Below are positions 5,782 to 63,078 of a stretch of DNA of 64,000 bases, piece after piece (the first letter of the stretch is position 1; every line of letters begins with the position of its first letter). Under the pieces are notes generated by a model. The model was not told where the DNA came from and searched no databases. It was given only the letters and a program-made list of their open reading frames with translations. The position numbers and the translations under genes are program-made. Source of the stretch: Allocoleopsis franciscana PCC 7113. GTDB lineage: Bacteria; Cyanobacteriota; Cyanobacteriia; Cyanobacteriales; Coleofasciculaceae. The stretch is from assembly GCF_000317515.1 (NCBI RefSeq), contig NC_019738.1, positions 2,189,623 through 2,253,622 on the forward strand, read 5' to 3'.

Positions 5782-7731
5782 ATGCCATCACAAAAGACGA
5801 TTTTTCCACCGCTCGCGCTCTCCCTACTGATAATTTTGGGATCGCCAGGAATTGCCAGTTCCATTGCTACTACGCGTCAGCCTACACCCGCAACCGCCAC
5901 TACAGCTAGTGCATCCCGGCAAAAGTTTCTGACCACCTCTGTGCAAGCGGGGGAGCGGGGCCGGAGCTCATACGAGGACAGGAAAGCAGGGGAGATTTTA
6001 GCTGGTCAGTTATTTCTGCCATGCTGCACTAGTCAGGCTGAAGTGTTAGCCGTTTTGGCTTTCAACCTGGCTACGAGTGGAAACATTGAGCAATCCCAGC
6101 CACTCTTCGAGCGTGCCATTCAGGTGGCAGAAGTAATTTCGGATCGGGCGGCTAAAATCAGAGCATTGTCTGCGATCGCCTTGAATCTGGCACAAGTGGG
6201 GCAAACACCGCGCTCAGAACAACTATTTAACACAGCGGTACAGCTAGCCAAAAAAACAAGCCCCGATTTCGACCTATACGCTCAAGGCCCAGCCTTGCGG
6301 GATGTCATCATGCAAATGGCTCAAGCCAGACAAACCGAACGAGCATTGCAATTAACGAAGACACTTTCTTCCCATCTCCTCAAAGCTCAAGCTCTCAACG
6401 AAATCGCGGCAAGTCTTGCCGATCGCGGACAATGGCAGCAAGCCAAGTCCATCCTACTAGAGGCGCTGCAATTCGCCAGAGGCATTACCGGAGACTATGC
6501 CTATGAATCCAATGGCTTTTGCGGCAACGAGAAATTTGCGGTACTTTCTAAAATTGCTGGCAATTTAAGTTTACTGTCTCAGTTAGACCGCGCCCTGCAA
6601 GTAGCGGGAAGCGTATCTGGCTGTAGTTCAGCCGCTGGGCAATCGACTCAGGACTATCAAGCCTGGGCATTTCTCGGCATTCTTAGCCATCTGAAAAAAG
6701 TAGACTCAGTCAAGCAGACGTGGAAAAGCGCCCAAGCCATCCAAAGCCCATTGGAGCAATCCATCGCTTGGTCGGCGATCGCCGTCAAACTGATCGATAT
6801 GGGAGAAGTACCCCTCGCTTTATCGATCGCGCAAAAAATTGCTGCCATTCCTCCTGTAAAAGACTATAGTCCAGAGTGGACGCTACTCAATTTGGGTACA
6901 AAAGAAAATGCCTTGAGGGATATCGCCATTAAACTGACACAAAAGCAACAGTTTGATGCAGCGATGCAAGTTGTACAGGGCATGACAGCATCACCGCCGT
7001 CAGTATCTGGCTCAATGCAGGAGTCCGATCTCTTTCCCCAACCCAGTATCAAAGACACAACCTTGGGTGAGATCGCCCACCAGATGGCACTGGCTGGGCA
7101 AGTTTCTTCAGCACTCCAGGTAGCAAACTCCATTCCTAATATTGAAGGGAAAGCCCTGGCTCAGATTGCGATCGCCAGAGTCTTGCAAACTACAAAACAA
7201 GGGTCACAAGCCTCAAAATTACTTCAAGATTTGGTCTTACCGCCAACACCCATAAAGCCCAATGACTATTACGGTTATCAGCCGCTCAGCCACATTGCCA
7301 CTGCACTGGTTACGGTGGGACAAACGGATCGTGCTCTCCAGATGGCTGAATCGATCCCAAGTGACTTACTCAGAGAAACAACCTTAACAGATATTGCTGT
7401 CCAACTGGCAGATTTGGGACAAATTGAACCAGCGGTGAAACTGGCTAAGAACCTCAAAGGACAAGGTTCTAGATCGATACTATTCAACAAAGTAGCCTCG
7501 AAGCTCGTGGAATTGGGTCAACTGGATCAGGCGCTTCAAATAGCATCTTCCCCCGCAAGCAGTTCATCATCCCTGGAAGGAAGTGAAAAAGCCAAGTTGT
7601 TAGCTGAAATTGCGGATAAATTTGCCCAAATAGGGCAGCGATCGCAAGCACTAAAAGTGGCGGAAACCATTGAAGATAATGAACTTAAAGCCAAGACGAT
7701 AGCTGAGATCGCCACCAAACTGGCTCTGTAA
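5782..7731 (+). CDS. secreted helical-repeat (TPR-like) protein carrying an in-frame MITE insertion
   Basis: About 649 residues. The ATG at 5782 is preferred over the TTG three bases upstream. A signal peptide is evident (FPPLALSLLIILGSPGIAS), so it should be exported. From about residue 85 the protein consists of degenerate 35-40-residue helical repeats with the pattern A..LA..GQ...AL..A.SI, an alpha-solenoid like TPR domains and probably a protein-interaction scaffold. Residues about 42-83 are encoded by a dispersed repeat element (5906-6032) that adds exactly 41 codons between signal peptide and repeats. It is divergent from the kinase-like gene; the function is unknown. Confidence 0.8.
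   Translation: MPSQKTIFPPLALSLLIILGSPGIASSIATTRQPTPATATTASASRQKFLTTSVQAGERGRSSYEDRKAGEILAGQLFLPCCTSQAEVLAVLAFNLATSGNIEQSQPLFERAIQVAEVISDRAAKIRALSAIALNLAQVGQTPRSEQLFNTAVQLAKKTSPDFDLYAQGPALRDVIMQMAQARQTERALQLTKTLSSHLLKAQALNEIAASLADRGQWQQAKSILLEALQFARGITGDYAYESNGFCGNEKFAVLSKIAGNLSLLSQLDRALQVAGSVSGCSSAAGQSTQDYQAWAFLGILSHLKKVDSVKQTWKSAQAIQSPLEQSIAWSAIAVKLIDMGEVPLALSIAQKIAAIPPVKDYSPEWTLLNLGTKENALRDIAIKLTQKQQFDAAMQVVQGMTASPPSVSGSMQESDLFPQPSIKDTTLGEIAHQMALAGQVSSALQVANSIPNIEGKALAQIAIARVLQTTKQGSQASKLLQDLVLPPTPIKPNDYYGYQPLSHIATALVTVGQTDRALQMAESIPSDLLRETTLTDIAVQLADLGQIEPAVKLAKNLKGQGSRSILFNKVASKLVELGQLDQALQIASSPASSSSSLEGSEKAKLLAEIADKFAQIGQRSQALKVAETIEDNELKAKTIAEIATKLAL
5906..6032 (+). mobile_element. MITE-like element, copy 1, inserted in frame in a coding sequence
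   Basis: A 127 bp segment bounded by CTAG at both ends, with imperfect terminal inverted repeats of about 32 bp. The left end reads CTAGTGCATCCCGGCAAAAG and the complement of the right end reads CTAGTGCAGCATGGCAGAAA; both run into CTGACCA. The distance between the two CTAG sites is 123 bp, exactly 41 codons. Closely related copies lie at 56624-56735 (same orientation) and 62927-63078 (opposite orientation). It encodes no transposase, so mobility would need a partner in trans. Confidence 0.85.
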
Positions 7732-25215: not shown

Positions 25216-25246
25216 CTTAATGCAGTGTGACCGAAATAACTGACCC
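25216..25246. repeat. degenerate terminal segment of the MITE family
   Basis: The stretch beginning AATGCAGTGTGACCGAAATA and continuing ACTGACC matches one end of the MITE copies (TGCAGCATGGCAGAAATAACTGACC in two parts), with three to four mismatches. The expected partner end is not visible nearby, so this is a relic or a solo end. Confidence 0.5.
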
Positions 25247-25297
25247 GCTCAACTCACTCTCTCAAATCATTTCCATTGGCATCAAAATGATTCAAAA

Positions 25298-56623: not shown

Positions 56624-56735
56624 CTAGTGCATGACGGCAAAAGTTTCTGACCACCTCTGTGCAAGCAGGGGAGCGGGGGAGCGGGGGAGCGGGGGAGATT
56701 TTAGCTGGTCAGTTATTTCTGCCAGTCTGGTCTAG
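56624..56735 (+). mobile_element. MITE-like element, copy 2
   Basis: A 112 bp element bounded by CTAG, same orientation as copy 1. The left end matches copy 1 (GGCAAAAGTTTCTGACCACC is identical); the core has three GGGGGAGC octamers; the right end (GGTCAGTTATTTCTGCCAG) matches for most of its length but is degenerate in the last 10 bases. It lies in the gap before accC, ending 85 bp before the start codon, so it may affect the accC promoter. Confidence 0.85.
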
Positions 56736-61475: not shown

Positions 61476-62930
61476 ATGAGTACCAGACACCTGCGTATCG
61501 CCACACCAGGAATGATTGCTGCCGCAGTGGCTATCGGTGCTACGACCCTAACTGTAATCGCTCCTGTTGACTTGCTCAGTCTATCCTTACAGTCAAACCG
61601 TGCTTTTGCCCAAGATGTTGACGAGCAAATCAATATTCGAGTGTATCAACGGGCAAGCCCAGCCGTCGTTTCCATCGATACCAATGACGGTGCAGGAAGT
61701 GGCAGTATTATTAGCCCAGATGGGTTAGTTTTAACCAATGCCCATGTTGTGGACAATGCACGTACCGTCGAGGTGACATTGACCGACGGTCGCAAGTTTT
61801 TAGCTGATGTTGTTGGTTTTGGCGCGAATGGTCTTGACCTCGCTGTTGTAAAAATTCGAGGAGCGAACAATTTACCAAGCATTACCTTGGCTCGTAGCGC
61901 CGTACAAGTGGGTCAGAGGGCATTTGCGATTGGTAATCCCTTTGGTCGATTTCAAGGAACCTTTACGACGGGGATTGTTAGTCGTATCGATCAAGAACGC
62001 GGCTTGATTCAAACTGATGCCGCCATTAATCCCGGTAATTCAGGCGGACCACTTTTGAATAGTCAGGGTGAATTGATTGGTGTGAATACGGCAATTTTTA
62101 CCGATAGTCGTAGGGGTGGCAATATTGGGATTGGTTTTGCGATCGCTCTTGAGCGAGTACAACCGTTCCTCTCGGCGGTGCGCTCCGGAAGTGCTCCCCG
62201 GACAACTCAACGCCAAGGGCCAGACCCTGGTAGGAATGCTCCTCAATCCCTAGCTCTTAATGGTTCTGTCATTACAGGCACTCTAGGACGAGGTAGCAGT
62301 GTGTTGCCAGTGGATAATAGCTTCTTTGACCTTTATACCTTTGAAGGGAGAGCCGGTCAACGGGTTCAATTTGACATGGCAAGTCAGGAAATCGACCCTT
62401 ATTTAATTTTGATTGATCCCAATGGGAATGAGGTAGCTCAAGACGATGATAGTGGGGGCGGGTCGAATGCTCGAATCCTCGCCACTTTACCCGTTGATGG
62501 GAGCTACCTATTGATGGCAAACTCTTTTGAGGCAGGACAAGCGGGAGCTTATCAATTACGCGCTCAGGCGGCGACGGTCGGGAGTCCTAATGCTGCCAGT
62601 CAGGAACGTTTCCGTTTCGTCTTACGGCAACAAGGTATTCTTGGCCCTGGTTCTTTTGTATTACCTTCAGATGGCAGTTTGTTCAAAGTCCATATCTTTG
62701 AAGGCCGTGCGGGTCAGTCAGTCACGATTAACTTAGCGAGTCCAGATTTTAAAACGTATTTGGCACTGCTTGATCCCAGGGGTCAGTCCATTGGCGAAAA
62801 TGATCAGGTTAGCCAGAATGACAACAATTCCAGCTTGACGGTTACTTTGCCCCAAACGGGTATCTATCGGGTGATTGTTAATGCGTATGACAGGAGAGGG
62901 AGAGGTCGGTACCTTTTGACAATACGCTAG
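61476..62930 (+). CDS. trypsin-like (HtrA/Deg) serine protease with two PPC domains
   Basis: A 484-residue exported protease. A signal peptide (about 1-45, ending NRAFAQ) leads to a chymotrypsin fold with the catalytic triad in LTNAHVVDNA (His), NGLDLAVVKI (Asp) and NPGNSGGPLL (Ser). In place of the PDZ domain of classical HtrA there are two PPC-type beta domains (about 255-360 and 370-484: FDLYTFEGRAGQRVQFDM, FKVHIFEGRAGQSVTINL). The stop codon TAG is the first CTAG of MITE copy 3. It probably shares a transcript with the two TolB-like lipoproteins. Confidence 0.92.
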   Translation: MSTRHLRIATPGMIAAAVAIGATTLTVIAPVDLLSLSLQSNRAFAQDVDEQINIRVYQRASPAVVSIDTNDGAGSGSIISPDGLVLTNAHVVDNARTVEVTLTDGRKFLADVVGFGANGLDLAVVKIRGANNLPSITLARSAVQVGQRAFAIGNPFGRFQGTFTTGIVSRIDQERGLIQTDAAINPGNSGGPLLNSQGELIGVNTAIFTDSRRGGNIGIGFAIALERVQPFLSAVRSGSAPRTTQRQGPDPGRNAPQSLALNGSVITGTLGRGSSVLPVDNSFFDLYTFEGRAGQRVQFDMASQEIDPYLILIDPNGNEVAQDDDSGGGSNARILATLPVDGSYLLMANSFEAGQAGAYQLRAQAATVGSPNAASQERFRFVLRQQGILGPGSFVLPSDGSLFKVHIFEGRAGQSVTINLASPDFKTYLALLDPRGQSIGENDQVSQNDNNSSLTVTLPQTGIYRVIVNAYDRRGRGRYLLTIR

Positions 62931-63078
62931 TGCAGCATGGCAGAAATAACTGACCAGCTAAAATCTCCCCTGCTCCCCTGCTCCCCTGCTCCCCTGCTCC
63001 CCTGCTCCCCTGCTCCCCTGCTCCCCTGCTCCCCTGCTTGTACAGAGGTGGTCAGAAACTTTTGCCGGGATGCACTGG
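62927..63078 (-). mobile_element. MITE-like element, copy 3, with nine tandem octamers
   Basis: About 152 bp, inverted relative to copies 1 and 2. The left end CTAGTGCAGCATGGCAGAAA and the right-end complement AGTGCATCCCGGCAAAAGTT match the two ends of copy 1; the second is identical over about 30 bases. The core is nine perfect CTCCCCTG units (62965-63036). The outermost right CTAG has decayed (CTGG). The left CTAG supplies the stop codon of the protease gene. Confidence 0.85.

Follow-up and report, generated by a model that had tools for sequence, protein, structure and literature searches.

The gene considered here lies in a 64,000-nucleotide stretch of Allocoleopsis franciscana PCC 7113 DNA (contig NC_019738.1; "the window"), and its reading frame passes without interruption through a short repeat. 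This raises the questions of what the repeat is, how it came to lie there and whether the protein makes use of it. A sequence-only reading had described a 127-bp element at 5906-6032 with imperfect terminal inverted repeats and CTAG at both ends, 123 bp from CTAG to CTAG (41 codons) and open in frame, and had called it a domesticated MITE. Its structural description was borne out: both CTAG are present, the inverted repeat is imperfect (arms of 33 nt, 76% complementary), and ORF 5782-7731 stays open across the 123 bp, giving the host protein the 41 residues SASRQKFLTTSVQAGERGRSSYEDRKAGEILAGQLFLPCCT. The number of added residues stood and their numbering shifted: they had been placed at 42-83, and counting from the ATG at 5782 gives 43-83 (equivalently 42-82). 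The element is short and without a transposase gene (127 bp; close copies 96-192 bp), has terminal inverted repeats, belongs to a family of many dispersed copies and shows target-site duplication, with CTAG at both ends and a single CTAG at five element-free sites. These features support its assignment as a MITE lying in frame in the host gene (Table 1).

Table 1. Coordinates in the window of the host gene, the parts of the element and its close copies.
Feature	Position	Strand	Description	Basis
Host gene	5782..7731	+	649-aa protein: signal peptide (by eye), linker, TPR-type solenoid	Open frame, Pfam, sister-species orthologue
MITE copy including both CTAG	5906..6032	+	Net insertion 123 bp, 41 codons, residues 43-83	
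Left CTAG (or TA within CTAG) target duplication	5906..5909	.		Single CTAG at element-free sites of other copies, sister genome
Right CTAG (or TA) target duplication	6029..6032	.		Sister-genome element-free sites of other copies
Left inverted-repeat arm	5906..5938	+		Inverted-repeat comparison
Right inverted-repeat arm	6000..6032	-	Near IS630-type IS ends	Inverted-repeat comparison
Variable middle	5945..5995	+	GGGGAGCN units and core GGCCGGAGCTCATACGAGGACAGG carried by a subgroup of copies	
Second close copy in window	56624..56735	+	No long ORF across; element-free site in sister genome (L012)	
Third close copy in window	62927..63078	-	On TAG stop of 490-codon ORF (L013)	

The element recurs outside the host gene far more often than chance would give, with two further near-complete copies in the window and about 15-17 genome-wide. 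Its end motif CTAGTGCANNNNGGCRRAAR, with at most one mismatch, had 106 matches in the genome and none for a reversed control; 71 matches were exact, and the motif was found in 17 of the 19 genomes of the taxonomic family. Elements were gathered by search and by region; 17 of them were unpaired, and their far ends were set by a simple rule. Close copies have common ends and differ in their middles, which consist of a variable number of GGGGAGCN octamers; in the subgroup formed by the host-gene copy, L002, L003 and L004 the core GGCCGGAGCTCATACGAGGACAGG is present as well. The 8 outermost bases after CTAG also differ among copies. As the sequence-only reading had it, the other window copies are intergenic or at a stop: the one at 62927-63078 sits on a TAG stop and the one at 56624-56735 has no long ORF spanning it. 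A literature search found nothing naming PCC 7113 together with MITEs.

The flanks of the copies were compared with a sister species of the same genus. Here the orthologous host gene is present (86% protein identity), the element is absent, and 90%-identical DNA resumes right after the site. The site is imperfectly empty, reading CCAG instead of CTAG and carrying a further 12-bp near-tandem unit, CCAGTCATCCCT before CCAGTCAGG, so that an account by insertion also requires one substitution and one small indel. The net difference in protein length is 37 residues, 41 gained by insertion and 4 the opposite way (613 codons in the sister orthologue and 650 in the window gene, both taken from a TTG just ahead of the ATG in the ORF list). 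We infer that the 12-bp unit is a product of slippage, the site having two CCAGTCA repeats at a spacing of 12 bp. It could also be the remnant of a left end, CTAGTGCATCCC, if the common ancestor had carried the element and the sister had lost it: the unit differs from that end by one substitution and one gap, and it lies exactly at the host-gene site. Slippage explains the unit equally well, however. The sister genome moreover has no full-length near copy of the close subfamily (best 70% identity), the TGCATCCC end variant is absent from its listed ends, and 11 other copies likewise have element-free sister sites, which makes an ancestral insertion very improbable.

Those other sites were obtained by placing 160-bp flanks of the copies on the sister genome, where 14 copies aligned with loci found and 11 had an alignable element-free site. 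A single exact CTAG occupies the site of L003, L006, L008, L011 and L012; the sites of L002 and L009 read CTAA and CTAC, that of L010 reads CTAA within a 78% match, and at L004, L014 and L098 the target has diverged. For L007 one flank only is covered, ending in CTAG; the L013 match stops 15 bases beyond the junction, and the L018 match falls short of it. In its own genome L009 is flanked by CTAC/CGAC, which fits a 4-bp duplication with one change or a 2-bp duplication with two. The element ends therefore represent a target duplication. From these sequence comparisons we conclude that the MITE family has moved and that it duplicates its target. The target is palindromic, so that a duplication of TA cannot be distinguished from one of CTAG; the net insertion is 123 bp under either.

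A candidate source was present in relatives. Several contigs of the sister genome end within a transposase followed by the end sequence, and at locus L247 lies a 1392-bp IS, bounded by CTAGACCAGGCTGGCAAAAATAAGTGACCA and CTAGTACAGCGTGGCTAAAATAAGTGACCA, whose ORFs match HTH_32 and DDE_3 (DDE_3 match of the relative's transposase, 6.6e-21). Two more ISs with similar ends, of 1068 and 1056 bp, were found in a genome of another genus. The right arm of the element is identical to the sister-genome IS ends at 24-26 of 30 positions and the left arm at 21 of 30; the element has its ends in common with an IS630-type IS. DDE_3 together with CTAG points to the IS630/Tc1-mariner family, whose IS630 elements insert into TA and reportedly prefer TA in CTAG (PMC2170065 and IS630 titles cited there). 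None of the three ISs with these ends (L247, L252, L256) looks intact: the transposase is split over frames in L247 and L252, and the 320-aa frame that runs through L256 is, by reading of the sequence, without part of the DDE region. A 48-aa transposase tail had no match in Pfam or NCBIfam, the domain matches coming from the fuller L247 copy. The PCC 7113 genome itself gave no match to an IS630-type transposase or source IS; none of its 41 loci with PF13546 and PF01609 transposases carries MITE ends, and no transposase was recognised on reading the ORFs that adjoin unpaired ends. As no such transposase was found there, the MITEs of this genome appear to be orphans. Their likely source, judged from the shared ends, is an IS630/Tc1-mariner-type IS now degenerate in relatives.

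How readily such an element can be read through was assessed in 16 close copies. Seven of their 96 frames are stop-free, and three also have a net length that is a multiple of three; a random close copy in a gene would thus keep the frame in about 3% of cases. The three readable copies (5906-6032, L002 and L004) all have the core, 123 bp net and the same frame. In the host gene the frame runs through because the net length is divisible by three and one frame is stop-free. This copy is the only one of 56 elements spanned by a long ORF of a recognised gene, two others being spanned by ORFs of 169-175 codons of uncertain standing as genes. Given that 91 of the 147 CTAG sites of the window lie inside ORFs, in-gene insertions have evidently been purged. 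Twelve of the 56 elements are placed so that C-TAG (in one case C-TAA) terminates an ORF of 100 codons or more, and elements on stop codons look commoner than expected. CTAG being C plus a TAG stop, the target duplication restores the stop, so that insertion there is permitted without change to the protein. The roughly 3% of readable frame choices suggests a reason for the rarity of cases such as the host gene, the family otherwise persisting outside genes or exactly on stops.

The reading frame also bears on the possibility that the gene starts downstream of the element, which would then be a leader RNA hairpin and not coding. A long hairpin can form (-46.4 kcal/mol), only moderately better than in shuffled sequences (z -1.8). 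Because the sister species shares, in the same frame, the signal peptide and linker encoded by the 42 upstream codons, and distant orthologues too begin with a hydrophobic leader, a downstream start is extremely unlikely.

We then considered the protein. It matches Pfam TPR_12 (1.9e-13) and has an N-terminal signal peptide assigned by eye; both this signal peptide and the TPR solenoid are shared by the sister orthologue. In two distant orthologues from cyanobacteria, with 45% and 41% identity, the solenoid again follows a hydrophobic leader and a linker of variable length, and the 41-residue insert is absent. The alignment therefore places the insert in neither the sister nor the distant proteins, and the two findings that would have spoken against the sequence-only reading, the same residues in distant orthologues or an element confined to this gene family, were not encountered. 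In an AlphaFold2 model residues 1-82 have pLDDT below 50 and a confident solenoid begins at about 85; its input was an alignment of three sequences, a design that of itself depresses the confidence values of the insert. The inserted residues are thus predicted to lie in an unstructured stretch that ends where the fold begins. The model fits the earlier suggestion that the insertion falls between signal peptide and solenoid, where extra sequence may be tolerated, and its position in an unstructured linker would explain that tolerance.

The word "domesticated" did not hold up. True domestication would mean that the 41 residues gained a function, for instance by serving as a spacer, providing a processing site or contributing a Cys-Cys pair, and that selection retained them. 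The frame is intact and the solenoid is under constraint, with a dN/dS between the sister species and the window gene of 0.24 in the solenoid part and 0.81 over the first 40 codons; that constraint, however, cannot be assigned to the time since the insertion and does not extend to the insert, which lies in the unstructured, variable linker and was found in one species only among the genomes searched. Compared with its three closest copies, the host-gene element has few private changes, including GCA to GCG (silent) and GGA to AAA (Gly to Lys). With dS between the two species at 0.28, this indicates a young copy. The tests run showed no function, conservation over lineages or selection for the 41 residues. 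Domestication is accordingly quite improbable; the insert is probably a tolerated passenger, which a young copy fits at least as well, and an in-frame MITE does not by itself establish a new function of the host protein.

These data are consistent with the reading that we prefer, to which we assign a probability of about 0.85: an IS630-type MITE inserted into the host-gene linker after the split from the sister species, in frame, adding 41 residues as a tolerated passenger. It is supported by the mobile family, the element-free orthologue, the target duplications of sibling copies, the open frame and the matching IS ends in relatives. In this model, a non-autonomous, Tc1/mariner-like MITE of IS630 type would have entered a CTAG site between the signal peptide and the TPR domain, later than the separation of the two species of the genus. 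Cut-and-paste insertion would have lengthened the gene by 123 bp, the duplication of the target TA (or CTAG) included, with an IS630-type transposase, since lost from the genome, presumably acting in trans. The longer protein would then be translated and exported, the insert being a near-neutral passenger in the unstructured linker.

In-frame MITEs as such are already known, the precedents being the Rickettsia palindromic elements, BOX, ERIC and QMITE1. Rickettsia palindromic elements often lie in ORFs and specify a conserved peptide (reviewed in PMC10969869). The PCC 7113 element resembles them as a palindromic repeat read in frame within a host protein, and differs in that the share in frame in genes is 1 of 56 and most copies are unreadable, 3 of the 16 close copies being open and length-neutral. 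BOX, ERIC, QMITE1 and MITEb/MITEe of Anabaena are MITEs said, in PMC10969869, to contribute coding sequence. Like the present family, they are described there as small repeats with open frames able to fuse to or lie in genes; they are unrelated to it, whereas here the IS type, an element-free sister gene and element-free sibling sites are available. Nezha, which PMC10969869 cites, is likewise a MITE from cyanobacteria. With IS630/Tc1-mariner ISs and their MITEs (IS630, ISY100 of Synechocystis; PMC2170065) the element has in common a TA target within CTAG and DDE_3-type IS ends. It differs from these ISs in being non-autonomous, in its variable octamer middle and in that no such transposase was found in its own genome. 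The locus is an unusually complete bacterial case of a MITE becoming coding sequence, with the element, an element-free sister gene, sibling duplications, a candidate source IS and the protein context.

Another close copy, L009 (1501-1604; G000:C1:6397797-6397900), replaces the last residues of an ABC-type ATPase, whose ORF ends ...SFVVQHGRNN inside the element; in the sister sequence the stop lies three codons after the target. Taking L009 as a second case, one might suppose that in this cyanobacterial family IS630-type MITEs with a CTAG target repeatedly supply in-frame linkers and new C-termini, giving low-rate variation in protein length set by the number of internal octamers; we consider this generalisation unlikely. 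A different candidate for a second in-frame case, L243 in genome G003, was rejected because its ORF runs antisense to another one whose end falls on the element.

Several further observations concern the distribution of the repeats. Stop-codon elements of the PCC 7113 genome include the window copy at 62927-63078, L002, L007, L103 and L079; only 2 of the 147 CTAG sites in the window are stop codons. Further subfamilies have similar ends, several bearing AAGGCAG heptamers at one end, and one (L071, L072, L073, L081, L082 and others) has CTACTCCTACGGAGAACGCTACGCGAACT in the middle. A repeat with quite different ends, TAAGCTGTTACGCAT... and ...GCGCTTTAGCTTA, occurs at L019-L024 and L030, yet carries the core GGCCGGAGCTCATACGAGGACAGG of the MITE subgroup; this core is common to otherwise unrelated repeats. 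A 38-bp piece at 25218-25255 of the window matches the right end of the element at 79% identity and is perhaps a relic. Genome G005, of another genus, has 163 exact matches to the end motif, more than twice the 71 of PCC 7113.
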